Notes under the pieces: model-generated
What the model was told of the DNA's origin: nothing
What the model saw: only the letters and a program-made list of their open reading frames with translations
Databases searched by the model: none
Shown: in pieces, positions 1-20,128 of the stretch
Position numbering within the stretch: the stretch's first letter is position 1
Layout of the letters: the number at the start of each line of letters is the position of its first letter
Origin: a virus
DNA: 27,325 bases
Direction: 5' to 3' (one strand)
IMG/VR virus record: IMGVR_UViG_3300036832_000727
Location: 1 to 27,325 of that record
Made by a program: the position numbers and the translations under genes

Positions 1-131
1 GGTAAGGACTTGGCGCTAGACTTTCGCTCCATTGCTAAGAGTCGATTAGTGTTAGCGCCGTAGTTAACGGAGTCTTGCACTTGAGCAAAGGTCCGTCAAG
101 AGGCAATCTTGGGAGAACAGGGATAAGAGAG
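1..131 (+). promoter_or_regulatory. repressor upstream region with inverted repeats and shared TGCTAAGA element
   Basis: This non-coding leader of the rightward repressor is more AT-rich than most of the window. It contains an inverted repeat GGCGCTA (12-18) / TAGCGCC (53-59). TGCTAAGAGTCG at 33-44 differs by one base from TGCTAAGACTCG on the minus strand upstream of the early operon (about 7544-7555). A small hairpin, CAAGA (97-101) / TCTTG (107-111), abuts the recurrent motif at 113-123. No convincing -35/-10 pair was found. The promoter and operator role is inferred from position and shared elements. Confidence 0.45.
113..123 (+). promoter_or_regulatory. GAGAACAGGGA motif, copy 1 (upstream of repressor)
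   Basis: Exact 11-base motif ending 8 bases before the ATG of the repressor gene, on the same strand. Four more exact copies lie at 2864, 4252, 4341 and 7489. It overlaps the place where a ribosome binding site would sit, so it may work in translation or transcription, or as a repressor operator. The 5-bp hairpin 97-111 lies directly upstream. Confidence 0.7.
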
Positions 132-527
132 ATGACGGAGTTAGGGACCCTTTTAGTCAATCTCAGGAAGCGCGCCGGTCTTTCGCAGACAGAGATAGCA
201 TCTCGCGCTCAGATATCGGGAGGGTATCTCTCCCAACTAGAAACGGGAGCGCGCGGGGACCGTATACCGCGAATAACCATACAAAGGCTCGCGGAGGCTC
301 TCGGAGCGGACCCAAAGAGACTCTTGCAAGCCGCGGGCATGAGGATAAATGCGGAGGACGTAAGCCTCGATGAGCGTCCTATGCTTGAGGACTTTATCCA
401 AACGGAGCCGACGTTGACGGCATCGGAAAAGAGCGTATTGCTCTCGATGCTTACTCATTTAAGAGCTAATCCGGCTCCGTCCAACAACCATCCGCAAGGG
501 TCCCGACCAGGGATAACGCGCGTATGA
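132..527 (+). CDS. XRE-family helix-turn-helix repressor (likely immunity repressor)
   Basis: The 131-residue protein has an N-terminal helix-turn-helix at about residues 6-62, with the usual pattern LRKRAGLSQTEIA, then GGYLSQLETG, then LAEALGADP. The C-terminal 60 residues look like a short dimerisation or linker segment. The frame is open back to a TTG at 75, but ATG 132 is preferred because the protein then begins just before the HTH fold and motif copy 1 sits directly upstream. It is the only confident rightward gene and converges with 466..681, overlapping it by 62 bases. With a serine integrase nearby, a lysogeny-maintaining repressor is the best reading. A Cro-like or other phage regulator cannot be excluded. 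Confidence 0.85.
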   Translation: MTELGTLLVNLRKRAGLSQTEIASRAQISGGYLSQLETGARGDRIPRITIQRLAEALGADPKRLLQAAGMRINAEDVSLDERPMLEDFIQTEPTLTASEKSVLLSMLTHLRANPAPSNNHPQGSRPGITRV

Positions 528-681
528 CCAAGCCGGTTAGCTCGATAACCTCCGGCGCGTCCGGGAGGCTCCGGACCAAATCCTCTGCCGTCTTAAGCGT
601 AGCTTCCAAAGCTCTAACGTCCCCATTGGGCATCCCTTCCCTTAAGGATACTTTGCCGCTCTCCATCGCGTCCTTTGGCAT
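466..681 (-). CDS. hypothetical small protein, last gene of leftward lysogeny operon
   Basis: A 71-residue protein of unrecognised family. It has an amphipathic helical middle (RALEATLKTAEDLVRSLPDAPEVIELTG) and a short hydrophobic tail region. The ATG at 681 overlaps the TGA of the preceding gene (TGATG), which indicates translational coupling. Its 3' end overlaps the 3' end of the repressor gene on the other strand, so the two transcripts are antisense to each other there. Confidence 0.6.
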   Translation of the reverse strand: MPKDAMESGKVSLREGMPNGDVRALEATLKTAEDLVRSLPDAPEVIELTGLVIRALSLVGTLADGCWTEPD

Positions 682-920
682 CAACGGTCCCCATTCCGCT
701 CGGGTCCTCTGCCTCGCTTAGCGGAGCGTATCACTCCCGGATTGGGCTCCGTCCCGGACCGCGGAGCCTTGCCAAGCCGCTCATGGACCCGGATGAGTAA
801 GGCTCCGACCCGTTGACGGATGCCGACGTCCTCGACGGCTTCCGGGAGTCCCTGCCGCTCTCTGTCGCGCCGCGCGTTGGCAAGGACCCGCTCCCGGTCC
901 TCATCGCTCAGGTTGCCCAT
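681..920 (-). CDS. hypothetical small charged protein
   Basis: 79 residues. The N-terminal half resembles, from memory, short actinobacteriophage proteins of unknown function with a pattern like RVLANARRDRERQGLPEAVEDVG. The C terminus is basic (SAKRGRGPERNGDR). Start ATG 920 is chosen over upstream codons because a strong GGGAGG ribosome binding site precedes it by a few bases. The gene lies downstream of the integrase, where recombination directionality factors can be found, but nothing in the sequence proves that role. Confidence 0.7.
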   Translation of the reverse strand: MGNLSDEDRERVLANARRDRERQGLPEAVEDVGIRQRVGALLIRVHERLGKAPRSGTEPNPGVIRSAKRGRGPERNGDR

Positions 921-1139
921 TGGACCTCCCTTGAGGGAGGCATGGCCGGAGGGAGGTCCTCCGGTCCTCACGGCTTACCCATTGCCTTGAGAGGCTCTTG
1001 GTTGATGCTTGGTCGAGAGCCAAGCCGCTAAGCGCTCTGCCGGGTCTTGCTCCCGGAGCCGGTCCAAGTGTCCGGACAGAGCCGCCTATGGGCTCAGAGG
1101 ACCCGCTAGGGACCGCTCTGAGCCCGCTAGGACCCTACC
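921..1139. other. non-coding interval between integrase and next gene, rich in perfect hairpins
   Basis: No convincing gene. Perfect inverted repeats: GGGCTCAGAG (1090-1099) / CTCTGAGCCC (1116-1125), CCGGAGG (946-952) / CCTCCGG (958-964), and CCTCCCT (925-931) / AGGGAGG (934-940). The last one includes the ribosome binding site of the 681..920 gene and could mask it. The interval is also a possible place for attP, but no att core was identified. Confidence 0.6.
1090..1125 (-). terminator. strong hairpin just downstream of the integrase stop
   Basis: A perfect 10-bp stem (1090-1099 / 1116-1125) with a 16-base loop begins 15 bases past the integrase stop codon. It has no U-tract, so intrinsic termination is uncertain. 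A processing or protective hairpin, or a recombination-site arm, are alternatives. Confidence 0.45.
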
Positions 1140-2675
1140 TCATGCCCGGAATCGGAAGCTCAAGCGGTCCGGGTCCCAAAGCCTCGACCCGGCTCGACCC
1201 GGCTTGACCTCGACCCGCTCCAAGACGTAGGCCAGGACCTCCCTCCGCTCATCAAAGGTCATAACCGGATTACCGTCCTCATCCGTTGCCGTCCAAGCCT
1301 GCCGGAGCGCTCCGGGCCTACCAAGCCAACGGTAAACGTTGGGCGGAGGTCCGACCGGAGTTGACTCAACCAACGCGGCTTGAGCGTCCTTGAGAGCCTG
1401 CCGACATTCCGCCATTAGCTCGACGTAATCCTCAAGGTCGAGCTTGCCGGACTTACGTTGAGCCTTGAGGTAATCAACGTTGGCTTGAGCTTGCTCGACG
1501 TCGGAGGTATCGGGCTCGACCCGCTTGCCGCGCGGCTTGAGAAAAGCCGTCCTATCCGTAGCGTCAAGGATGGCAAGCTCGACGGCTTCCTCCGTCTTGG
1601 CGGCATCAATCGAGCCTCCCGGCTTGACCTCATAAATCCTCCGATATCCGTCCGGAGCCGTCGAGCCAATCCGCTTGCCGTCCGGACCCTTGGGTCCAAC
1701 GGCTCTGCCGCCATGCATCTTGGGAAGCTCGATGACGTTGCCGTCCTCATCGAGCCGTTGGGCATAGAGGAAGCCGGACAACAGATACCGGACCGGAGTC
1801 CGATGCTTTCGGCTCGGATCCGTCAAGATGGCTCGGACCCGCTCCCAAGCGGCAGGCTCAATGACCGGCAACCAAGCGGCTTTGCCAATGACGTTGCCTT
1901 GATGTTGCCGGAGTCCGGCAATCCTCGGGCTTACCAAGAGTTGATGGATAGTGGCAAACGTCCAAGCCTTGCCGCTCGGAGTCTTGGTATCGACCGAGAG
2001 CCGCTCCAAGTCTCGCAATGAGGACCCATTGAGGATGGCATCCGCCCAAGCCCGGATGACGGCTTGCTCTGCCTCGATTGGGTCAATGCCGTTGGCGGCA
2101 AAGCCAAAGGGACGCTTGCCTCCGGCAAACTTGCCGTCCTCGGCAAGCTCAAGCATCTTGGATTGCAAGCGCTCGGACTTAATCTCGGACTCAAGCGCGT
2201 TCACAACTCCAAACATACGGGTCTTTGCTCTGTCTCCCGCGTTGGATACGTCGAGCCTGCCTCCGTAAAGAGTGTCTACGTTGACTCCGCTTGTCTCGAT
2301 CCAATCGCAAACGGGAACTAGGTCCGCCCAATGCCGCCAAAGCCTCGATGGCTCTCGGGACATGATGTTGCGGACCAAGCCGGAGTTAACGTCCTCTTGC
2401 AATGCCTCCCATTCCGGACGCGGGCTCGGGACGCGGGTAAAGGTCCCATCCGCTCTCTTAACTCGCTTCCAAGCGGACGTATTGTTGTCGATGCGGATGG
2501 CATGGACTCGACCTCCGCGAGCCTCAATCCGCGCCGTTGCCTCCCGGACTTGCCGCTTGACTCCAAGCTCATCGTTGCCGGGATCATCCGAGATGCGCGC
2601 GTAAATGTCCCAAAGCTCGATGCCGTCGAGGTCGAGGTCCTCGGGAAGCTCGATGACGTAAGAGAGGGAGGTCAT
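1140..2675 (-). CDS. int: large serine recombinase (phage integrase) with Cys-less zinc-ribbon region
   Basis: The 511-residue protein would integrate and excise the phage DNA by double-strand cleavage through a serine nucleophile. The catalytic Ser is Ser29 in YARISDD. SRLWRHWADL (about 110-119) matches the conserved arginine motif of the catalytic domain. The region around 160-200 (ALESEIKSERLQSKM, then GGKRPFGF) is the linker to the recombinase domain. Residues 297-300 (YLLS) start the segment that normally holds the zinc ribbon, but no Cys lies between 297 and 352; the only cysteines are 123 and 424. Residues about 390-436 form a predicted coiled coil. Its ATG overlaps the stop of the upstream gene (ATGA). 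Confidence 0.93.
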   Translation of the reverse strand: MTSLSYVIELPEDLDLDGIELWDIYARISDDPGNDELGVKRQVREATARIEARGGRVHAIRIDNNTSAWKRVKRADGTFTRVPSPRPEWEALQEDVNSGLVRNIMSREPSRLWRHWADLVPVCDWIETSGVNVDTLYGGRLDVSNAGDRAKTRMFGVVNALESEIKSERLQSKMLELAEDGKFAGGKRPFGFAANGIDPIEAEQAVIRAWADAILNGSSLRDLERLSVDTKTPSGKAWTFATIHQLLVSPRIAGLRQHQGNVIGKAAWLPVIEPAAWERVRAILTDPSRKHRTPVRYLLSGFLYAQRLDEDGNVIELPKMHGGRAVGPKGPDGKRIGSTAPDGYRRIYEVKPGGSIDAAKTEEAVELAILDATDRTAFLKPRGKRVEPDTSDVEQAQANVDYLKAQRKSGKLDLEDYVELMAECRQALKDAQAALVESTPVGPPPNVYRWLGRPGALRQAWTATDEDGNPVMTFDERREVLAYVLERVEVKPGRAGSRLWDPDRLSFRFRA

Positions 2676-2857
2676 CGAGCCTGCCTCTCCGCCTTAGCGC
2701 TCATGTACGCGACATGAGCGATGCCGTAACCGGAGGCAATGCCCTTGAGGCTTGCCGCCATTGTGTATCCGCAAGTGCAAACGGCTTCCCAACCGTCAAG
2801 CGCTCCCGGCTCGGTCGCGGGATGCTCCCGGACCTCGATGATTCGATGCTCTGCCAT
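2672..2857 (-). CDS. small protein with CTCGY motif
   Basis: 61 residues from ATG 2857. The core WEAVCTCGYTMAASLKGIASG resembles, from memory, short phage proteins with a Cys-x-Cys-Gly-Trp/Tyr core and a His-containing C-terminal helix; function unknown. The frame stays open upstream to a GTG at 2959, but that start has no ribosome binding site. The conserved motif copy 2 lies 6 bases before ATG 2857, which decides the start. The stop overlaps the integrase ATG, so integrase is probably translated from the same message. Confidence 0.65.
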   Translation of the reverse strand: MAEHRIIEVREHPATEPGALDGWEAVCTCGYTMAASLKGIASGYGIAHVAYMSAKAERQAR

Positions 2858-3147
2858 CTCGGCTCCCTGTTCTCTAGCTCCGTCCGGCTCGGGTTGAGCG
2901 GCGGAGCCGCTAAGCCTAGCATCATCGGGAGTCGGAGTCTTGTCGGGCGGGCCGGACACTACACAGACTCCCGATGAGCCAGAGCGGGAGCCCGCGGTAC
3001 GGATGGCCGGTAGTCGGTAGAGCCCTAAGGCTCAACGGGCTTGGCGGGCATAGCTGACACGCGGGCTCCCTGTCCGCCAAGCGGGTCCGGAGTGAAGCCG
3101 CGAGCATGGCTCCGGCATCCTCTCGGGCTCGACGGCATGGCCGGAGG
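2858..3147. other. GC-rich mostly non-coding interval upstream of gene 2672..2857
   Basis: No convincing gene is seen. A short leftward ORF of 37 codons could start at about 3138 but has no strong ribosome binding site. Motif copy 2 (2864-2874) and a hairpin AGCGGC (2897-2902) / GCCGCT (2906-2911) sit at its left end, where the next gene starts. Confidence 0.4.
2864..2874 (-). promoter_or_regulatory. GAGAACAGGGA motif, copy 2
   Basis: Exact copy on the minus strand, 6 bases before the ATG of gene 2672..2857. The six bases upstream (GAGCTA) are identical to those at copy 3. A 6-bp hairpin (2897-2911) lies about 22 bases upstream. Confidence 0.7.
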
Positions 3148-3309
3148 CTAGGCGGGAGGCTCGATGCCGTCAAACGGCTCGGAGCGGGCTCCCTGAGCCT
3201 CCCTGAGCGGCTCTAGGGCTCCCGGAGGACACTCGGGAGCTTCCGGGCTCTCTGAGCGGCTCAGAGCCTCCCCGGACGCGGCGGGAGGGAGGGACGCGGG
3301 CAACGTCAA
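3148..3309 (-). CDS. possible 53-aa acidic, Pro-rich small protein
   Basis: A leftward frame with a TTG start at 3309 (or 3303) directly behind a GGGAGGGAGG purine run that could be a ribosome binding site. The product is rich in Pro, Glu, Ala and Ser, ends FDGIEPPA, and matches no family I know. The underlying DNA is repetitive (CTCTGAGC G GCTCAGAG palindrome 3250-3266; several CCCTGAGC-like units), so the frame may be open by chance. Low confidence. Confidence 0.3.
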   Translation of the reverse strand: MTLPASLPPAASGEALSRSESPEAPECPPGALEPLREAQGARSEPFDGIEPPA

Positions 3310-3356
3310 CCTCCCTCCCTAGCGGGCTCCGGATGGCGGGATGCCGGAGCCGCGTC

Positions 3357-3662
3357 CTACCAAGCTCCCGGAGGTCCGACCTCGGGCTCATCCGCCCAAG
3401 ACTCTCCGGCATCGAGCGGGTCAAACCAAGCCGGAGGGACGTCCGACCTCCAATCTCCAAGCCGCTCCCGTTGCCGCTCATCCTCATCGAGCCGCTCGGA
3501 CCAATGGCTCCCGCATCGAGGGAAGCTCCGACCGCTCGGGCTCAGAGCCATCCGATACTCGACGGCTCCCTTGCATCCCTCCGGACCATCGAGACACTCA
3601 AGCCGCTCGGTCTTGATATCTCTTATCGGCAACGGTTCAAAGTGTCCGGGAGCGGGGGTCAT
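3357..3662 (-). CDS. small conserved actinophage-type protein with Cys/His residues
   Basis: 101 residues. The order of conserved features is CLDGPEGCKGAVEYRMALSPSG, FPRCGSHW, RLGDWRSDVPPAWFDPLDAG, then W.DE. I recall this layout from small proteins found across actinobacteriophages, with the Cys and His residues perhaps binding zinc; the function is unknown. Its ATG overlaps the stop of the upstream gene. This is one of the stronger hints that the host is an actinobacterium. Confidence 0.75.
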   Translation of the reverse strand: MTPAPGHFEPLPIRDIKTERLECLDGPEGCKGAVEYRMALSPSGRSFPRCGSHWSERLDEDERQRERLGDWRSDVPPAWFDPLDAGESWADEPEVGPPGAW

Positions 3663-3862
3663 TGAGAGTCCCTCCACTCGATGCCTCTTTGGTCGAGGTA
3701 AGTCCGTAGCTCATTGATGAGATGCCAAGGGATATTTGCCGAGTAAGCATAGGTATTGGCTTTGGCCGGAGCGGACCTCGCGATAGCTACGGCAATGCCG
3801 CTCAAGCTCCGGCCATCATGCTTTGGCTCTTGATGGGTCGAGTCTTTGGCTCTCGGGCTCAT
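3659..3862 (-). CDS. hypothetical small protein
   Basis: 67 residues, unrecognised. The middle is Ala/Ser-rich, and the C-terminal part (WHLINELRTYLDQRGIEWRDSQ) looks like a helix with charged ends. The ATG at 3862 overlaps the TGA of the upstream gene and its own stop overlaps the next start, so it lies in a tightly coupled run of three genes sharing one leader at 4240-4396. Confidence 0.6.
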   Translation of the reverse strand: MSPRAKDSTHQEPKHDGRSLSGIAVAIARSAPAKANTYAYSANIPWHLINELRTYLDQRGIEWRDSQ

Positions 3863-4239
3863 ATCAGTACCCATCCCATCGACGCGCATCCGTACCGGCC
3901 ATCCTCCGGGCTTGCTTGGCTTGGAGCCTCAAAGCCATCGGCAATCCGGATGAGGCAGATATCTCCGACCGAGAGGCTCCGATTGCCTGCCGCTCGATAG
4001 TCCTTCACTTGGTCTTGATAGACCCGCTCACAATGCAACTCCCCAACGGAGCTATTGCATACGGCAAAAGCAACCTCCGCCGCGGCTTGATGCGAGTCCG
4101 CTCGGACCCGGAGGTTAAAGCCGTCCTCTCCGTTGCCGTAGCAACCGTCCTTGATGGCGGCTCGGAAATCCTCCGCGGACCTCAAGCCAATCAACGTCCG
4201 TCTTGGGTCCTTGGACAACAGGACCGAGATACAAAACAT
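3859..4239 (-). CDS. hypothetical protein, first gene behind motif copy 3
   Basis: 126 residues from ATG 4239 (MFCISVLLSKDPR). The fold looks alpha/beta: strand FNLRVRADS, helix HQAAAEVAFAVCN, then HCERVYQDQVKDY. No family was recognised. The frame continues upstream to 4407, but that extension would read through the hairpin at 4265-4288 and the conserved motif at 4252-4262, so the short form is preferred. No strong ribosome binding site is present apart from the AGGGA of the motif. Confidence 0.6.
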   Translation of the reverse strand: MFCISVLLSKDPRRTLIGLRSAEDFRAAIKDGCYGNGEDGFNLRVRADSHQAAAEVAFAVCNSSVGELHCERVYQDQVKDYRAAGNRSLSVGDICLIRIADGFEAPSQASPEDGRYGCASMGWVLI

Positions 4240-4251
4240 CTTCACTTGCTT

Positions 4252-4262
4252 TCCCTGTTCTC
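4252..4262 (-). promoter_or_regulatory. GAGAACAGGGA motif, copy 3
   Basis: Exact copy on the minus strand, ending 12 bases before ATG 4239. The upstream flank GAGCTA matches copy 2 and overlaps the end of the hairpin 4265-4288, so hairpin, motif and start codon form one compact block. Confidence 0.7.
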
Positions 4263-4264
4263 TA

Positions 4265-4288
4265 GCTCGATGCCTTGACGCATCGAGC
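4265..4288 (-). terminator. perfect 9-bp hairpin upstream of motif copy 3
   Basis: Stem 4265-4273 / 4280-4288 with a six-base loop. It sits downstream of gene 4397..4717 and upstream of gene 3859..4239. No U-tract follows; the recurrent motif follows instead. It may terminate the upstream message, or act together with the motif. Confidence 0.45.
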
Positions 4289-4340
4289 GCGGAGGGTAAC
4301 ACAAAGACCGTTGCCGTTGGGACCGGCCCGGATTGACGGG

Positions 4341-4351
4341 GAGAACAGGGA
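4341..4351 (+). promoter_or_regulatory. GAGAACAGGGA motif, copy 4 (rightward)
   Basis: Exact copy on the plus strand. An ATG follows at 4352 with no gap and opens a 42-codon rightward frame ending at 4480, antisense to the end of gene 4397..4717. That frame matches no family I know. Without it, this copy would be the only one not facing a gene. Confidence 0.6.
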
Positions 4352-4480
4352 ATGTTGACAACCCGACAACCGGACCGGACCCAAGGGCAATGGTACTCAT
4401 TTGTCATCCGGGTCCGGGTCGATACGTTGCCGCTCCGTCCTCATGTCCCCGATAAACCTTCCCGCCGCGTTGGCCGGTAG
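4352..4480 (+). CDS. possible 42-aa rightward ORF behind motif copy 4
   Basis: The frame begins MLTTRQPDRTQGQWYSF, is basic, and ends RRVGR. It is supported only by its position immediately after motif copy 4. The last 84 bases lie antisense to the 3' end of gene 4397..4717, where open frames arise easily in this GC-rich DNA. The spacing is too short for the motif to be the ribosome binding site of this ATG. Confidence 0.2.
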   Translation: MLTTRQPDRTQGQWYSFVIRVRVDTLPLRPHVPDKPSRRVGR

Positions 4481-4717
4481 TCCAATCTTCCCGGTCAACA
4501 TATTCATAACAACCGCGTCAGAGGTAGCCGCGTCCGCGGCTTGGAGGAAGTTGAGCGCCATTTTGCGGACCTCGCTCGGGTCGAGTTGACCAGACATAAA
4601 GCTCCCGTCCTCTGCCGTGGCTCTAATAGTGAGGAAGCCTCGATACTCGCTCTCCCTCTCCGCCAATCCGGACACAACCTCGATATCAACCAATCCTGTC
4701 CATTGCCGCTTGCTCAT
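4397..4717 (-). CDS. hypothetical protein
   Basis: 106 residues from ATG 4717, behind a GGAGG ribosome binding site. The middle reads YRGFLTIRATAEDGSFMSGQLDPSEVRKMALNFLQAADAATSD. Beta strands followed by a helix suggest a small alpha/beta protein, but no family is recognised. It ends in the acidic tail DPDPDDK. It directly follows the two ribbon-helix-helix genes with a 10-base gap, so the three may act together. Confidence 0.65.
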   Translation of the reverse strand: MSKRQWTGLVDIEVVSGLAERESEYRGFLTIRATAEDGSFMSGQLDPSEVRKMALNFLQAADAATSDAVVMNMLTGKIGLPANAAGRFIGDMRTERQRIDPDPDDK

Positions 4718-4727
4718 ACGTCCTCCA

Positions 4728-4940
4728 TCATGCAAGAAAGTCTTGGAGTTGCTCGATGAGCTTTCGTCCTCGGTCGAGCCATTGCCAAACCTCATCCATT
4801 ACCTCCGCTCCCTCGGGCTCGGTATCGGCAACGGACAGAGCCGCCATGATGGCTCGACGGCATACGGGACTGAGCTTGAGCCCGCTTGCCTTGGCGCGTC
4901 GATGGACCTCATCGGGCAAATAAATCGTTACTCGCGCCAT
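4728..4940 (-). CDS. ribbon-helix-helix DNA-binding protein, copy B
   Basis: 70 residues. It starts with the beta strand MARVTIYLPDEVHRRAK followed by helix ASGLKLSPVCRRAIMAAL, the arrangement of ribbon-helix-helix (Arc/CopG, CcdA-antitoxin-like) proteins. The C-terminal half (EVWQWLDRGRKLIEQLQDFLA) is an amphipathic helix that could bind a partner. It overlaps the end of a paralogue (4909..5151) by 32 bases. No toxin-like partner gene was recognised next to it, so a transcriptional regulator is as likely as an antitoxin. Confidence 0.75.
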   Translation of the reverse strand: MARVTIYLPDEVHRRAKASGLKLSPVCRRAIMAALSVADTEPEGAEVMDEVWQWLDRGRKLIEQLQDFLA

Positions 4941-5151
4941 TGGTTAGGACGTCCTCCAACCGATTGAGCCGCTCCCGCGACGTACCGATAAAGACCAGTA
5001 GCTCCGAGATTGTCCCCTGAGCGTCCGTTGGAGCCTCCCGGACCGCTACCGCGTCGATTAGGGCTCTCTGGCAAGTGAGGGATACCGGGATGCCCAATGC
5101 CTTGACTTTCTTAAAGACCTCATCGGAAACTTGGACAGTCAACCTCGGCAC
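4909..5151 (-). CDS. ribbon-helix-helix DNA-binding protein, copy A
   Basis: 80 residues from a GTG at 5151, with a GGGGA-type site about 9 bases upstream. MPRLTVQVSDEVFKKVKALGIPVSLTCQRALIDAV aligns position by position with copy B (MARVTIYLPDEVHRRAK...), so the two are tandem paralogues. The C-terminal helix (ELLVFIGTSRERLNRLEDVL) differs. A 20-bp imperfect palindrome lies inside its 3' end (4942-4961), just before the copy B start. Confidence 0.72.
   Translation of the reverse strand: MPRLTVQVSDEVFKKVKALGIPVSLTCQRALIDAVAVREAPTDAQGTISELLVFIGTSRERLNRLEDVLTNGASNDLFAR
4942..4961. promoter_or_regulatory. palindrome between the two RHH starts (operator candidate)
   Basis: GGTT-AGGACGTCCT-CC-AACC: a perfect 10-bp core palindrome flanked by GGTT/AACC with a two-base offset. 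It lies directly upstream of the copy B ATG and overlaps its GGAGG ribosome binding site. RHH proteins commonly bind short palindromes near their own genes, so autoregulation is plausible but unproven. Confidence 0.4.
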
Positions 5152-5171
5152 CGGATGGATTCCCCTTATGG

Positions 5172-5378
5172 TTAGACCTCATCGGGCTCATACGCTCCCG
5201 GCAAGATACGGATTGGCTCCAAGCCATTCTTGACCCGCTCCGGATTGGCAAGCCGGACGCAACTCTCACAGACAGGCTCCCGCTCTCCGTTAAACACAAT
5301 CGACGGGACCCGCTCCGCCGAGAAATAAAAGGGACGATGGCAGGCAAAGCAATCGCCCAAGACATACATATATCCCAT
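5172..5378 (-). CDS. small zinc-finger-like actinophage protein
   Basis: 68 residues from ATG 5378 with a GGGAGG site 7 bases upstream. Two Cys-x-x-Cys pairs (CFACHRPF and CESCVRLANP) bracket VPSIVFNGEREP, and the protein ends GLEPIRILPGAYEPDEV. From memory this closely matches a small protein common in actinobacteriophages that is likely to bind zinc, with no established function. Longer in-frame starts lack spacing to the ribosome binding site. Confidence 0.8.
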   Translation of the reverse strand: MGYMYVLGDCFACHRPFYFSAERVPSIVFNGEREPVCESCVRLANPERVKNGLEPIRILPGAYEPDEV

Positions 5379-5382
5379 CCGC

Positions 5383-5682
5383 CTACCTCCCAACCTCGAT
5401 TGCCTCGACGGTATAAGCCGTCAACGGTCGATTTGGCTTGCCGTCCGGGCGGAGCGGTCGAGTCCGGCTTTGCATCTTCCAAGCCGTCATTGCCGCCATG
5501 CCATCGACAAACCTCATTGCCTCGGATATGTCCGGACTAAACAGAGCCTCCCCGCGTCCGCCGCGAGCCTCCGGGTCAAAGGCAACCAAATAGTCTCCCG
5601 GCTCCGCGGGAGTGAAGCTCCCCAAATGCATACCGGCAAGCCCAACAACCCGGAGGACAACGGGATTAGTTAATCGAGCCAT
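5383..5682 (-). CDS. hypothetical protein
   Basis: 99 residues from ATG 5682, overlapping the end of the upstream gene by 17 bases. The segment PGDYLVAFDPEARGGRGEALFSPDISEAMRF followed by DGMAAMTAWKMQSRTRPLRPDGKPNRPLTAYTVEAIEV suggests a compact alpha/beta domain with a regular strand-helix order. This resembles small phage proteins of unknown function. No catalytic motif is visible. Confidence 0.65.
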   Translation of the reverse strand: MARLTNPVVLRVVGLAGMHLGSFTPAEPGDYLVAFDPEARGGRGEALFSPDISEAMRFVDGMAAMTAWKMQSRTRPLRPDGKPNRPLTAYTVEAIEVGR

Positions 5683-5854
5683 GCCAACATTCCGGGCAAA
5701 GCATCCGGACCTCGACCAAGGCTCCGACCGGACCAACCTTGCAAAGCTCCATCAAGAGCCCGCACATAGTTATTAGGTGGGCATGGCTTGGCTTATGGAG
5801 TGTCCGGTCCTTGAGGTCGAGCATCCCAACGTCGGACTCGGATATATCGAGCAT
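5666..5854 (-). CDS. hypothetical small protein with C-terminal CPEC
   Basis: 62 residues from ATG 5854, chosen because GGAGG lies 7 bases upstream; the ATG at 5875 lacks one. The N terminus is acidic (MLDISESDVGMLDLKD), a His-rich turn follows (HKPSHAHL), then a hydrophobic helix with two Cys, and it ends in VRMLCPECWHGSIN. The CPEC pair may bind metal with an earlier Cys or His. No family recognised. Confidence 0.6.
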   Translation of the reverse strand: MLDISESDVGMLDLKDRTLHKPSHAHLITMCGLLMELCKVGPVGALVEVRMLCPECWHGSIN

Positions 5855-5871
5855 GGCTTTACCTCCGCCAT

Positions 5872-6060
5872 TCATTTTGCCTCATAGAGCCAGATGACTC
5901 GATGCAAGTCGGATACCTCGATCCGCTCGACCCTCCGCCATCCGGAGTCCGCATTGACAAAGACAAGCTCAAATGAGAGCCGCTCGACTCCAATCTCCCT
6001 CTCCCGGCTCAAGCCGCGTTGCACCATTGCCTTTACAAAGTCCCCAACCGTTTGATTCAC
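5872..6060 (-). CDS. hypothetical small protein
   Basis: 62 residues from GTG 6060, which overlaps the stop of the upstream gene (GTGA). The N terminus (VGDFVKAMVQRGLSREREIGV) looks helical, followed by strands (LSFELVFVNADSGWRRVERIEV). No family recognised. Coupled at both ends to its neighbours. Confidence 0.6.
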   Translation of the reverse strand: MNQTVGDFVKAMVQRGLSREREIGVERLSFELVFVNADSGWRRVERIEVSDLHRVIWLYEAK

Positions 6061-6227
6061 TCGACAACCTCGACCGGGACCTCATACTCATTGCCGTCCT
6101 CATCGGTCCAATAAACCATCTCCGGGATGACCTCCGTTAGTTGCTCCCGGATAATCTCTTGCCAATCTCCGCCCGATGCCTTGCGCGGGAGGTCGAGGCT
6201 TACCTTTATGGTCATCCGTCGATTCAT
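6057..6227 (-). CDS. hypothetical small acidic protein
   Basis: 56 residues from ATG 6227, which overlaps the stop of the ParB-like gene (ATGA). The sequence is strand-helix-strand: MTIKVSLDLPRK, then DWQEIIREQLTEVIPEMV, then TDEDGNEYEVPVEVVE. It is acidic at the C terminus. No family recognised. Confidence 0.6.
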   Translation of the reverse strand: MNRRMTIKVSLDLPRKASGGDWQEIIREQLTEVIPEMVYWTDEDGNEYEVPVEVVE

Positions 6228-7105
6228 ACCGGCTCCGGCCAGGACTCGCGGGTTGTCGGAGTGTAGGAATAGCTCAGGACCTTTACGGAGCGACCCTCTC
6301 TCCACGCGTTCCAAGCCTTAAAGCAAATGGCAACCCAACGAAAGTCCGGGTTGCGTTGCCGTCCTCGACCTCGATTGATTTCCTCTTGCGAGTATCGACG
6401 GAGAGCCAGTATCGGGCTCCCTTCCGAGAGGTCCGCGCCGCTCCGGAGCTTGTCATAGAACAAATCCGCTTCCGCGGCATGGACAATCGAGAGCCGATAC
6501 CAAACGGACAGAGCCGGACCCGGACGGAGCTTGAGCGCTCTCATGGCCGGAGCCGTCTTGGTCAAGCCGTCCCGGAGTCCTTGGTTCTCATCAAAGACTT
6601 GCAAGAGTTGAGGAATCGAGGGACGTCGAGCGTTGTCGGCATAATGCGGAGTCCCGGTCATCTCGGCATAAATGATCCGGGCATACCAACCGATGCCCGC
6701 GGCAAGCCGGAATACGTCAACCTCTCCCCGGAGCTTGAGAGCATCTCCCAACCCGCGCCGGAGAGTGTCATCCATAATGTCTTGGCTCTTGCGCGGCAGG
6801 TTGCGAAAGATGCCAACCTCAATGGGCATCCCGGAGGCAACGCAAGCGGCAAGCCGATGTTGCCCATTGAGCAAGACTCCATCGAGGTCGAATCCCAAGC
6901 AATCGGTCGAGAGGGTCCATTCCTCCCGCTTTATATTCTCGGCAAGATGGACAACCCTCGACTCCCGGATATCCCGGTTACGGACGTTTGCCTCTAGCAA
7001 CATTTTCTCCGCCCGCTCCGGAGTCACTGTCTCGATGCGGACGTTTGGCTTCACTACTTGACCATTTGCCCTTACGGCAGAGGGTCGCTTGAGCCTTGTA
7101 ACCAT
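6224..7105 (-). CDS. ParB-like nuclease-fold protein
   Basis: 293 residues. Residues about 21-110 resemble the ParB/sulfiredoxin fold: VRIETVTPERAEKMLLEAN, ESRVVHLAENIKREEWTLSTDCLGFDLDGVLLNGQHRLAAC, with the signature GQHR at 81-84. A mainly helical C-terminal domain follows. Phage proteins of this type are usually annotated as ParB-like nuclease domain proteins of unknown role; DNA partitioning, regulation or a nuclease function are all possible, and there is no ParA partner here. It starts at an ATG overlapping the stop of the first early gene. Confidence 0.8.
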   Translation of the reverse strand: MVTRLKRPSAVRANGQVVKPNVRIETVTPERAEKMLLEANVRNRDIRESRVVHLAENIKREEWTLSTDCLGFDLDGVLLNGQHRLAACVASGMPIEVGIFRNLPRKSQDIMDDTLRRGLGDALKLRGEVDVFRLAAGIGWYARIIYAEMTGTPHYADNARRPSIPQLLQVFDENQGLRDGLTKTAPAMRALKLRPGPALSVWYRLSIVHAAEADLFYDKLRSGADLSEGSPILALRRYSQEEINRGRGRQRNPDFRWVAICFKAWNAWREGRSVKVLSYSYTPTTRESWPEPV

Positions 7106-7470
7106 TAAGACGCTTCCTCCATTGCTCCGATTGCGTCCGCCTTATCTAAGCGGACCTTCACTCGGTCGAATAGGGAAAGCATCATTGTCTCCCGGTCCGG
7201 AGTCTCATCCCGCTTCATTTGATAACCCTCGGGATAGATATATCTCCGGCTCCCCGGAATCAACCGACCGGCATAGTCGATGAGGTCATGCCGCTCCGCG
7301 GTGCAACGGTCACAACGCAAAGAGAGCCTCCATCCATACAACGGAGTCCCCATATTGCCGGGATAAAACTCATCCCACCGATGGCGGATCAATCGGCATT
7401 TGAGCATGGCGGTATCGAGCCCTACCGAGTCTCCGCCCGGTATTGCCGTCGATGCTCTCCGTCGCGCCAT
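7105..7470 (-). CDS. first early gene: actinophage-type protein with CxxC
   Basis: 121 residues from ATG 7470 behind a strong GGAGG site. The core reads LKCRLIRHRWDEF, GWRLSLRCDRCTAERHDLIDYAGRLIPGSRRYIYPEGYQMKRDETP. From memory this is like a small actinophage protein with a Cys-pair (RCDRC) and a YxYPEGY segment, perhaps zinc-binding, function unknown. As the first gene after the 7471-7815 control region it is probably transcribed early. Motif copy 5 lies 18 bases upstream of the start. Confidence 0.78.
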   Translation of the reverse strand: MARRRASTAIPGGDSVGLDTAMLKCRLIRHRWDEFYPGNMGTPLYGWRLSLRCDRCTAERHDLIDYAGRLIPGSRRYIYPEGYQMKRDETPDRETMMLSLFDRVKVRLDKADAIGAMEEAS

Positions 7471-7488
7471 CCGCTCGACCTCCTAGTT

Positions 7489-7499
7489 TCCCTGTTCTC
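7489..7499 (-). promoter_or_regulatory. GAGAACAGGGA motif, copy 5
   Basis: Exact copy on the minus strand, 18 bases before ATG 7470. A separate GGAGG ribosome binding site lies between motif and start here, so the motif is not itself the ribosome binding site at this copy. A 5-bp inverted repeat (7508-7512 / 7526-7530) lies just upstream. Confidence 0.7.
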
Positions 7500-7545
7500 C
7501 CATTAGTAACCGTCCGGTCATTGTCCGGTTGGTTGTCCCTCGCGA

Positions 7546-7574
7546 GTCTTAGCACTATCGTAAGATGCCGTCAA
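7546..7574 (-). promoter_or_regulatory. possible leftward early promoter (TTGACG-17-TAAGAC)
   Basis: On the minus strand, TTGACG (7569-7574) and TAAGAC (7546-7551) are 17 bases apart, with an extended TGC before the second hexamer. The -10 matches the consensus only partly. The same TGCTAAGA sequence occurs on the plus strand upstream of the repressor (33-40). It would drive the early operon that starts at 7470. If the repressor binds here, it would silence the early genes in a lysogen. Confidence 0.4.
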
Positions 7575-7760
7575 GCGGAGGCAAAGTCCCTGTTGGGACG
7601 GCATTTCTACCGGCAGGGACCCTCAAGCGGGCTTGAGCCGATGAGGACTCATCCCAACCAACCTCACGCGCTCCGATGCCAGGATTTAACAGTTAGCTTA
7701 CGCGCCAAAGCCGCATTGCTAGCAAGGCAAACCGTTTACCCTGGCCTAACCTCGGGATGA

Positions 7761-7812
7761 CCGGCAGGGAGGGAGGCAAGGTGGCGGATGGGACCTATTC
7801 CCTCCCTGCCGG
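7761..7812 (-). terminator. 14-bp perfect hairpin after the late operon
   Basis: Perfect inverted repeat 7761-7774 / 7799-7812 with a 24-base loop, starting 3 bases past the stop of the last late gene. No U-tract follows. Position fits a terminator or 3' stabiliser for the late message. Confidence 0.55.
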
Positions 7813-7815
7813 GAC

Positions 7816-7995
7816 TTATGGTTGCCGGTCGCGGGTAACGGCAACAATGAACATTGCCAAGCCTCCGACAATGGCAACGGAAGCCAAGAGGTCAAATCGA
7901 GCGCTCGATTGCGGGAGGACCAAAGCCAGGATGCCCGCGACAACGCAAACCGCGCCCAAGAGCATCAAGTAAATACGTCCCCGCCAAAGCTCCAT
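7816..7995 (-). CDS. two-helix small membrane protein, holin candidate
   Basis: 59 residues from ATG 7995, immediately after the endolysin stop (TAAATG). Two hydrophobic segments, IYLMLLGAVCVVAGILALVL (about 8-27) and FDLLASVAIVGGLAMFIVAV (about 34-53), are joined by a short polar turn, and a charged tail (TRDRQP) follows. Size, two membrane helices and position next to the endolysin fit a class II holin, which would let the endolysin cross the membrane. A similar two-helix protein is encoded at 24114..24287, so which one is the holin is open. Confidence 0.72.
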   Translation of the reverse strand: MELWRGRIYLMLLGAVCVVAGILALVLPQSSARFDLLASVAIVGGLAMFIVAVTRDRQP

Positions 7996-8790
7996 TTAGG
8001 TTACCGGAGCCGTCCAACTCGCGGACCAAGTATCGGGACCGACCAAGCCATCCGCGGCAAGCCCTTTCTCGGATTGAAAGCTCCGCGCAACGTCCTCGGA
8101 TTGCGGACCAAAGATACTATCGACGCCAATCGACCAACCTCTAGCGCTCATCTGAGCTTGCCAAACTCCAACGTCGGAATGGGTCGAGTTATGGTCAATG
8201 CCAAAGTAATCGACATGCAACGTAGGAGCCGGACCCGCGGGAGCGCTCGGGCTCGGAGGTTGCGGGCTCGGAGTCGAGGGAGCTTGACCTCCGGCCATTG
8301 CCAGGACCTCCGACATTGGAAAGCCCGGACCCGCGTCCCAATGTCCTCCGCCCGCGGAGCCCAAATCGACATGCTGACAAACTCCGGAGGCTCCGCCTTG
8401 AGCTTGACCGGCATTGAGCCCGATAATCGGGATGCCAAATGCCGCGGCTTCCTCCGCTACCCATTGAGCTACGTTGCTCAAAATATTTGGATGACCATGC
8501 CATTCTGCCGTTGACCATTCCGCCCAAGCACAAAGCTCCGTACTCACACAATATGGATTTGCGTTGGCTTGGGTCCAACTTTTTTGGGCTCTCTCGACAT
8601 AGGTAGCAATGACGCCAAGCTCATCATCAATGCCGGTATGGCTCGATGCCTCAACGTTGCCTTGGAAATAGGCTCCAAGGTCCTCTTTGGTTGAGGCTCC
8701 CTGAGCCGTATGAATGACGATAAGCCTAACGGCAGAGCCTCCGCGGCTTGAATAGTTCGGACTCGGGATGGCAACTCTTTGGAGTGTCAT
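7996..8790 (-). CDS. endolysin: N-acetylmuramoyl-L-alanine amidase with peptidoglycan-binding domain
   Basis: 264 residues. An N-terminal Amidase_2/PGRP-type zinc amidase spans about 1-165: His27 in VIHTAQGAST, His140 in GVCQHVDLG, and HWDAGPGF with Asp152 at the position of the third metal ligand. A Pro-rich linker (about 170-190) leads to a C-terminal peptidoglycan-binding domain (about 205-260: VGVWQAQMSARGW, FGPQSEDVARSFQ, GLVGPDTWSA). It would cut the bond between muramic acid and the stem peptide at lysis. No signal peptide is visible, so it needs a holin. The ATG overlaps the stop of the upstream gene. Confidence 0.9.
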   Translation of the reverse strand: MTLQRVAIPSPNYSSRGGSAVRLIVIHTAQGASTKEDLGAYFQGNVEASSHTGIDDELGVIATYVERAQKSWTQANANPYCVSTELCAWAEWSTAEWHGHPNILSNVAQWVAEEAAAFGIPIIGLNAGQAQGGASGVCQHVDLGSAGGGHWDAGPGFPMSEVLAMAGGQAPSTPSPQPPSPSAPAGPAPTLHVDYFGIDHNSTHSDVGVWQAQMSARGWSIGVDSIFGPQSEDVARSFQSEKGLAADGLVGPDTWSASWTAPVT

Positions 8791-19973: not shown

Positions 19974-20128
19974 AACGCTCCTAGTTGCTAGAGATTTATC
20001 TGTCTCTGGCAACCCGGTCGAGCCGTATCGCTCCGCACTATTCCGGGCTCGGGACTCGCTCCCTTTGCCTCAATCTCAAGGATTGTCTCTCGGAGCCGCA
20101 TCGCGCCGCGCTCCGATCAAGCCGGATA
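19974..20128 (-). promoter_or_regulatory. major capsid gene leader with hairpin
   Basis: A 155-base non-coding leader, the largest break inside the late operon. On the minus strand a hairpin spans 19985-20012 (TTGC/GCAA and AGAGA/TCTCT arms around an 8-base loop, one mismatch) and ends just before the AGGAG site of the capsid gene. It could be an mRNA-stabilising or processing element that boosts capsid translation, or carry a promoter; no clear promoter was seen. Confidence 0.5.

Follow-up and report, generated by a model that had tools for sequence, protein, structure and literature searches.

Five exact copies of the 11-mer GAGAACAGGGA are present in the window (the whole 27,325-nt stretch of viral DNA analysed), and they fall into two classes: four of them (copies 1, 2, 3 and 5) are found at ribosome-binding sites or close by, and copy 4 lies in the loop of a hairpin. 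A motif shared by four leaders, together with a reversed copy in a hairpin loop, suggests one small RNA that switches genes by base pairing. Judged on sequence, the chances are about even that the DNA at copy 4 specifies a hairpin RNA, antisense to the four leaders and pairing with them in the manner of c4 or RNAIII.

Conservation of the motif

The copies at 113–123 (+), 2864–2874 (−), 4252–4262 (−), 4341–4351 (+) and 7489–7499 (−) were all found again where the initial annotation had placed them, and its statement that none lies in the late operon is correct. The window has no copy with one mismatch, and matches with up to two mismatches number 10 against a shuffle mean of 8.97. About 0.013 exact copies are expected from base composition, in agreement with the 0.01 given earlier; however, the count by itself proves little because other 11-mers reach five to seven copies (six with 6–7 and eleven with 5), which presumably arise through codon and dinucleotide bias. 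Scanning of related genomes, as had been proposed, revealed all five sites at orthologous places in two divergent relatives (G002 and G003), and the repeat is therefore not a product of chance. Across 15 comparisons among the window (G000), G002 and G003, the motif is 97.6% identical, compared with 30.0% for the upstream flank (30 nt) and 44.3% for the downstream flank (20 nt). GAGAACAGGGA is the motif sequence in these genomes and in G001, and it alone among 11-mers has at least four copies in each of three genomes. Only two single changes to the motif occur among G000, G002 and G003, both within GAGAAC, and AGGGA is unchanged.

Matches to the motif followed by ATG in viral_contigs were single copies among the matches listed and were set aside as chance. 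The divergent pair formed by copies 4 and 3 matched three viral records, all relatives; one match in a Halomonas contig was discarded at about chance level as estimated. There were 46 TerL-related loci, and the 15 records scanned held no exact copy of the motif, six having one or two copies with one mismatch. Even GAGAACAGG is absent from the nearest, G005 (TerL 57%), a 17-kb fragment.

The four leaders

The leader copies s1, s2, s3 and s5 and their surroundings are as follows.

97–111, plus strand: 5-bp stem CAAGA/TCTTG 5' of s1, folding energy not exceptional
113–123, plus strand: leader motif s1, 8 nt 5' of the repressor start
132–527, plus strand: putative target gene encoding the HTH_31 repressor; identity 54% to the G002 and 52% to the G003 version
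1140–2675, minus strand: serine integrase, encoded second in the s2 operon
2864–2874, minus strand: leader motif s2, 6 nt 5' of gene 2672–2857, the first in the integrase operon
2876–2908, minus strand: hairpin immediately 5' of s2, in the lowest 0.5–0.9% of random 45-mers in 3/3 genomes
2913–2918, minus strand: TAGGCT, candidate −10 hexamer, 38 nt 5' of s2
4252–4262, minus strand: leader motif s3, 6 nt 5' of GTG 4245, gene 3859–4245
4265–4288, minus strand: hairpin with a 9-bp stem, immediately 5' of s3
4293–4298, minus strand: TACCCT, candidate −10 hexamer, 30 nt 5' of s3
7105–7470, minus strand: small CxxC protein, first gene of the s5 operon
7489–7499, minus strand: leader motif s5, 18 nt 5' of gene 7105–7470, with a separate AGGAGG in between
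7548–7556, minus strand: AGTGCTAAG element 5' of s5, candidate operator or −10 region (G001 counterpart at 20091–20099)

The initial annotation had each copy facing a start codon 0 to 18 bases away; the gene of copy 3 starts at GTG 4245 rather than ATG 4239, as judged from alignment with its relatives. G002 and G003 carry s1 without change at the corresponding site, and its distance to the start is 8 nt in each of the three genomes; s3 lies at 6 nt in 3/3, and s2 at 6, 6 and 2 nt. The distance at s5 is 18–21 nt (12 nt in a further genome, G020), with a Shine-Dalgarno-like sequence in between. Hairpins or inverted repeats had also been described beside copies 1, 2, 3 and 5. Those directly 5' of copies 2 and 3 are stable in 3/3 genomes (lowest 0.2–3.4% of random 45-mers) and alike in shape, not in sequence. 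At copy 5 only the upstream hairpin of G002 is that low (3.4%), and directly 5' of copies 1 and 4 none of the three genomes reaches that level among random 45-mers.

The hairpin at copy 4

4304–4398, minus strand: long hairpin presenting the anti-motif, the proposed antisense RNA; −54.2 kcal/mol over 111 nt, z −6.78
4341–4351, minus strand: anti-motif TCCCTGTTCTC, copy 4 read on this strand, in the apical loop of the hairpin
4390–4395, minus strand: TACCAT (TATCAT in G001), candidate −10 hexamer, 38 nt 5' of the anti-motif, overlapping the base of the extended stem

Treatment of the copies as one kind is sound for 1, 2, 3 and 5, but not for copy 4. The possible 42-codon ORF at 4352 that had been offered as its gene corresponds to unrelated ORFs of 13, 19 and 83 codons in G001, G002 and G003, and copy 4 is therefore without a supported gene. 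In 4/4 divergent genomes (G000, G002, G003 and G020) it occupies the apical loop of a hairpin with a long stem. The hairpin has the same place and shape in G002 and G003, G020 has it next to another operon, and the stems are unrelated in sequence. On the antisense strand 17–24 pairs enclose the copy, and the 75-nt folds have energies between −38.8 and −45.1 kcal/mol and z-scores between −2.9 and −5.1. With the weakest observed copy 4 case as the stability cut, 79 of 39,064 windows (0.2%), at 43 places, are equally stable with their centre so enclosed; hairpins of this stability are thus no rarity in these genomes. On the sense strand the hairpin is likewise highly stable (−33.2 to −41.9 kcal/mol). 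Neither folding energy nor G-U pairs single out one strand: the antisense fold is the better one in 4/4 genomes at 75 nt, 3/4 at 101 nt and 2/4 at 121 nt.

A single TANNNT is present in 110 nt of the antisense strand, with a gap of 38, 34 and 36 nt in G000, G002 and G003 and 62 nt in G020. The sense strand has no TANNNT within 70 nt in 4/4 genomes (gaps of at least 5 nt), and the background frequency of the pattern is 4–7%. The hexamers of the s2 and s3 leaders have a spacing of 30–38 nt in 6/6 cases, as on the antisense strand of copy 4. These candidates are bare TANNNT patterns, and a sigma-70 promoter scan of positions 1–8000 gave none at their sites; in the window, the case for a dedicated hairpin promoter is weakened by the overlap of TACCAT with the stem base. 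The terminator scan listed none after the hairpin, and a search of Rfam at E up to 1 gave nothing relevant in the window or in loci L193 and L189. By eye, a U-rich stretch is present at the stem end of the hairpin in the window. Copies 4 and 3 form a divergent pair, spaced by 78 nt in G000, 71 nt in G002 and 79 nt in G003; G020 has the pair at a spacing of 92 nt, next to s5 instead of s3.

A proposed antisense circuit

In the proposed circuit, the leader motif would serve as the target and copy 4 would supply the effector. A short RNA would start on the minus strand near 4390 and fold into the hairpin at 4304–4398; alternatively, it may be the 3' end of a read-through mRNA of the s5 operon. 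Its loop, UUCCCUGUUCUC, would pair with GAGAACAGGGA in four leaders, namely those of the repressor, the integrase operon, gene 3859–4245 and the 7105–7470 operon, and thereby block or alter ribosome entry. The motif would be frozen because one loop with four targets needs matching changes at five places.

Predicted loop–leader pairing at the 12 leader sites is −21.3 to −31.3 kcal/mol, and 10 of the 12 surpass every control gene start, although these energies are not independent of the shared motif. As with c4, the loop is complementary to a target near the ribosome-binding site, with one mismatch in G003, whose loop GACAACAGGGA differs so from all four leaders. In G020 the s5 leader has the same variant as the loop, GAGAACAGGCG, in favour of the pairing; against it, the match of the other leader, GAGAACAGGAC, to the loop is limited to 9 nt, and a fourth 9-mer falls inside an ORF.

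Alternative explanations

Instead of an RNA, a phage or host RNA-binding protein may recognize GAGAACAGGGA in single-stranded leaders, with copy 4 as a sense-strand hairpin that titrates it as a decoy or sensor. The position of the motif at ribosome-binding sites, the stability of the sense-strand hairpin and the persistence of the cluster K repeats described below without a reverse copy are all compatible with this, and ACAGGGA resembles the CsrA core. CsrA binding needs GGA, which is lost in the G020 variant, and CsrA was rejected as the binder. The sense strand lacks a nearby TANNNT in all four genomes, and no candidate binder emerged, the CxxC protein of the s5 operon having a predicted fold of low confidence (pLDDT 60). 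Recognition by a protein seems unlikely.

Two mechanisms had been put forward in the initial annotation, and the RNA-level start-site element fits the results best. The other, in which the HTH repressor encoded at 132–527 would bind the asymmetric 11-mer downstream of promoters, block transcription and regulate itself, is improbable. L5-like stoperators are short, asymmetric, oriented, repeated and repressor-bound, and the motif shares this form, although its sequence is different from theirs. All copies lie in the lysogeny or accessory part, one of them in the repressor leader. However, that is the sole copy in the repressor/early-operon intergenic region of G001, G002 and G003, and with up to one mismatch none lies at the early lytic promoter in these genomes or in the early lytic operon itself (RusA, exonuclease and primase; outside the window, seen in G001). 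The leader of this operon in G001 has AACAGGGA at 27332, with three mismatches to the motif, which is not found in G002 or G003. Moreover, the position of s1–s3 is tied to start codons, and DNA binding does not need the conserved hairpin loop at copy 4. AGTGCTAAG, present both in this intergenic region and 5' of copy 5, is a better operator candidate.

The hairpin might also act only in cis, ending the upstream operon while its loop pairs with s3 some 80 nt downstream in read-through mRNA, so that gene 3859 would be silent unless transcribed from its own promoter. The divergent pair, 71–79 nt apart in three genomes and kept at 92 nt beside s5 in G020, and the U-rich stem end seen by eye would suit this, but the same 11 nt at s1, s2 and s5 are left unexplained, and we consider it a poor prospect. 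That the motif is merely a favoured ribosome-binding site is very improbable and was rejected: AGGGA lies 2–8 nt from the start at s1–s3, but predicted pairing with the 16S tail is weaker at the 12 sites (−5.7 to −8.0 kcal/mol) than the called-gene median of each genome (−8.2 to −8.7), GAGAAC is almost as frozen as CAGGGA, s5 has a separate Shine-Dalgarno-like sequence and copy 4 has no supported gene.

Comparison with known systems

RNAIII of S. aureus acts on several mRNAs. The C-rich loops of RNAIII and the icaR 3'UTR pair with Shine-Dalgarno regions through a UCCC-type sequence, as the antisense RNA proposed here would; both are bacterial rather than phage RNAs and differ in sequence context. 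In the icaR 3'UTR of S. aureus the sequence is UCCCCUG, a precedent for anti-Shine-Dalgarno pairing (PMC3868564). Another is c4, an antisense RNA made by phages P1 and P7. Like the proposed RNA it is of phage origin, probably has its complementary sequences in loops, pairs close to a ribosome-binding site and controls immunity; c4 is described as acting on ant mRNA, whereas four leaders, the repressor's own included, would be targeted here (PMC12197685). In the parts of the literature covered, no link of the 11-mer to phages appeared among the text matches listed, nor was one found between antisense RNA and the start-associated sequences (SAS) of cluster K phages.

The likeness to SAS noted initially is supported in anatomy but not in sequence. 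In Pope et al. 2011, SAS is a short asymmetric repeat a few nt before the starts of non-structural genes, and four K1 phages have one lone reverse copy away from gene starts (PMC3203893); the phage motif resembles it in this general layout. The function of SAS was described as unknown in 2011 (PMC3203893) and as still ill-defined in 2024 (PMC11373665). SAS lie 3–9 nt before start codons of non-structural genes, a range that covers s1, s3 and two of the three s2 distances but not s5, and copy 4 has no supported gene. The differences are in consensus (GGGATAGGAGCCC versus GAGAACAGGGA) and in copy number (11–19 versus 4+1). About half of SAS genes also have ESAS, inverted repeats of 17 bp that share a consensus, whereas the s2 and s3 hairpins share shape and not sequence.

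At 6 of 17 cluster K loci the reverse SAS forms the loop of a covarying hairpin (Anaya, CrimD, Efra2, Niklas, Validus and Amelie, the last with a second mismatch). Four have a hairpin with another C-rich loop (Ekdilam, Fefferhead, Ximenita and Unicorn), and at seven the anti-SAS anchor search gave no hairpin (Yuna, Shandong1, Keshu, KiSi, Nibb, Pixie and MarkPhew). All six phages examined without a matching loop (Pixie, KiSi, Yuna, Shandong1, Unicorn and Fefferhead) retain 11–15 exact SAS; five have no reverse copy and Yuna has one with two mismatches. Cluster K SAS are therefore not dependent on such an RNA, which limits the parallel. The antisense idea was rejected for cluster K as a whole, and for the present phage its chances were lowered from slightly better than even to even.

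It is rather unlikely, though conceivable, that one hairpin RNA is a hub controlling the repressor, the integrase operon and further prophage operons by pairing at their ribosome-binding sites, with the same design in those cluster K phages that have a lone reverse SAS in a covarying hairpin loop; SAS would then be, in part at least, targets of trans-acting antisense RNAs. Phage lysogeny is usually accounted for by protein repressors acting at promoters. A single small RNA setting repressor and integrase translation together would, if true, be a different kind of lysogeny switch, and the antisense proposal gives a concrete test of one possible role of SAS.

Conservation of the motif among related viruses

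The motif GAGAACAGGGA (11 nt) is real and conserved, and is more structured than the initial annotation perceived. All five exact copies claimed there were recovered:

113-123, + strand, s1, leader of the repressor gene (132..527)
2864-2874, - strand, s2, leader of the integrase operon
4252-4262, - strand, s3, leader of gene 3859..4245
4341-4351, + strand, copy 4, a lone reversed copy within hairpin 4304-4398
7489-7499, - strand, s5, leader of the operon headed by 7105..7470

The window is the entire IMG/VR virus record (27,325 bases, linear class), perhaps a fragment; early genes missing from it are present in the near-identical relative G001. At the left end lies an HTH repressor; a serine integrase operon, several small operons and a ParB-like gene (named from the annotation of distant matches) were also identified. 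The - strand carries a late region whose genes include those for lysis, tail, portal and terminase. A megablast search of the window gave no match among 50,697 phage records, and the phages behind the listed protein matches (27-44% identical) are those of mycobacteria, propionibacteria, Oscillospirales and other groups. Four proteins (integrase, terminase, repressor and ParB-like) served as queries for finding relatives. The integrase is 99% identical in G001 and 67% in G002 and G003, and G020, a 17.6-kb fragment, encodes a ParB-like protein of 60% identity.

As the initial annotation had proposed to check, the motif and its placement were followed in relatives, and G001, G002 and G003 keep copies at the same five places (five exact in G001; four exact plus one with a single mismatch in each of G002 and G003). 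Across 15 ungapped pairwise comparisons of the window, G002 and G003, the motif is 97.6% identical, versus 30.0% for the 30 nt upstream and 44.3% for the 20 nt downstream, and GAGAACAGGGA is the sole 11-mer with at least four copies in each of these three genomes. The 9-nt core GAGAACAGG has four copies in G020:

before the s5 gene
in reverse orientation, 92 nt upstream of that gene
after the ParB-like gene
inside the ParB-like gene start, which may be coincidence

In locus L193, a long stem-loop (6856-6945) lies immediately before the final GAGAACAGG copy, at the contig end.

Position of the leader copies

The distance from the motif end to the start codon at s1, s2 and s3 is 8, 6 and 6 nt in both the window and G002, and 8, 2 and 6 nt in G003. 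The small first gene of the integrase operon is absent from G003 and s2 directly precedes the integrase, which ties the motif to the head of the operon and not to one particular gene. For s5 the start codon is 18, 18 and 21 nt away in the window, G002 and G003 and 12 nt in G020, with a Shine-Dalgarno-like sequence intervening. The small protein encoded at 7105-7470, kept in these four genomes, carries CR...H.W and CxxC motifs and is perhaps a zinc-ribbon regulator.

A single TANNNT hexamer, a candidate -10 element, occurs in the 70 nt upstream of s2 and s3, 30-38 nt from the motif, in six of six cases (background approximately 4%). Between hexamer and motif there is a hairpin in all six, within the lowest 0.2-3.4% of random 45-mers. 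This order, hexamer, then hairpin, then motif, argues that the motif probably sits in leader RNA rather than in the promoter. No TANNNT was found at 30-38 nt from s1, and at s5 one is present at that distance in G003 and G020 only.

A second element, AGTGCTAAG, is found with at most one mismatch both between the repressor and the early operon and upstream of s5, and is a candidate repressor operator:

window, 7548-7556
G001, 27275
G002, 25554
G003, 6652, 6690 and 6713

The early lytic operon leader of G001 also contains AACAGGGA (27332-27339), the last eight letters of the motif; this site has three mismatches over 11 nt and is without a counterpart in G002 and G003.

The reversed copy lies in a hairpin loop

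Copy 4 had been linked to the start of a possible ORF, but no conserved ORF is present there. Instead, it occupies the apical loop of a long hairpin in the window, G002, G003 and G020 (75 nt folded around the copy), with stems that have no sequence relation among the four genomes. The window hairpin reaches -54.2 kcal/mol over 111 nt (z -6.78). Comparably stable hairpins occur elsewhere in these genomes, with 79 of 39,064 windows at or below -38.8 kcal/mol and centred inside at least 17 pairs, at 43 places; among the motif copies, copy 4 alone attains this energy. ORF 4397-4717 of the window is without a blastn match in G001, G002 or G003, and the difference from G001 there stops right beside the hairpin.

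On the strand showing the complement (anti-motif), the gap between the anti-motif and a lone TANNNT is 38, 34 and 36 nt in the window, G002 and G003 and 62 nt in G020; the G001 hexamer is TATCAT. The adjoining 70 nt on the opposite strand contain no TANNNT in all four genomes. By folding energy the antisense strand is the better one in four of four genomes at 75 nt, three at 101 nt and two at 121 nt, and as this preference fades with longer windows it does not settle the strand. A scan found no terminator after the hairpin.

A possible antisense RNA with several targets

The loop of the hairpin RNA, UUCCCUGUUCUC, is the complement of all four leaders and would pair with them, covering or adjoining the ribosome-binding sites of four mRNAs (repressor, integrase operon, gene 3859 and s5 operon). 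The hairpin RNA could be transcribed separately or belong to the s5-operon mRNA as its 3' end; its pairing could either repress or activate. Loop-leader pairing is predicted at -21.3 to -31.3 kcal/mol over 12 leader sites, and at 10 of these beats every control gene start (30, 33 and 26 controls); s3 of the window ties with the best control and s5 of G003 falls slightly behind it. A shared antisense partner would explain why GAGAAC is nearly as frozen as AGGGA despite little Shine-Dalgarno use. It would also explain why the loop and s5 leader of G020 both carry the variant GAGAACAGGCG, although a recent duplication would also account for it. Counting against the antisense reading, the G003 loop has a mismatch to its leaders, the second G020 leader matches the loop over 9 nt only, and the scan gave no terminator. 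Taken together, the case for a multi-target antisense RNA system, most like the c4 or RNAIII type, is evenly balanced.

The c4 RNA of P1/P7 is described as stopping ant translation near the ribosome-binding site, with complementary sequences likely in loops (PMC12197685). The likeness is the antisense loop near a ribosome-binding site, whereas the system of the window would have several targets. In S. aureus, the icaR 3'UTR is described as directing UCCCCUG at its own Shine-Dalgarno sequence (PMC3868564). An Rfam search of the window matched no relevant family.

A partial parallel in cluster K mycobacteriophages

Start-associated sequences (SAS) are described in cluster K phages and suggested to act in translation initiation; a single reverse SAS, not obviously placed at a gene start, is noted for Anaya, Adephagia, Angelica and CrimD (Pope et al. 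2011, PMC3203893). The motif is unlike SAS in sequence, as the initial annotation held, and does not belong to that family by sequence. The reverse SAS of Anaya (12 of 13 letters) forms the loop of a hairpin, with z -2.78 for 66 nt but -0.21 for 101 nt. Among 17 loci (Anaya and 16 chosen from 177 matching records), 10 have the hairpin and were all aligned; the seven in which the anti-SAS anchor found no hairpin were omitted from the alignment:

L189 (Anaya), 31846-31908, and L198-L204, L207 and L208, covarying RNA hairpin near the right genome end of some cluster K phages

In this alignment 94.0% of cells pair, falling to 28-47% when the partner is slid, and 7 of 20 pairs have changed on both sides. 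Six of the ten loops are anti-SAS and four are other C-rich sequences. A promoter-like TAGACTGCC occurs in seven of the 17 loci, three of which have the hairpin.

A scan for SAS in the right arms of eight phages gave 11-15 exact forward copies in every one. The reverse copy is present as well in Anaya and Niklas; none was found in the right arms of Unicorn and Fefferhead, which have another C-rich loop, or of KiSi, Shandong1 and Pixie, where no hairpin was found. In Yuna (L218, near 6722) a reverse SAS with two mismatches adjoins the start of the leftward repressor gene and is perhaps its ordinary SAS. SAS is therefore kept without a matching hairpin and is independent of it in cluster K, so the parallel backs the antisense reading in part only, and confidence in that reading was lowered to the even balance at which it stands. 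No antisense role of SAS appears in the accessible portions of a 2025 survey of 188 phages and a 2024 Adephagia study. On a bolder reading, which the same result made less likely and which is considered improbable, one hub hairpin RNA would serve the repressor, integrase and other operons, and the same design would operate in the hairpin-bearing cluster K phages.
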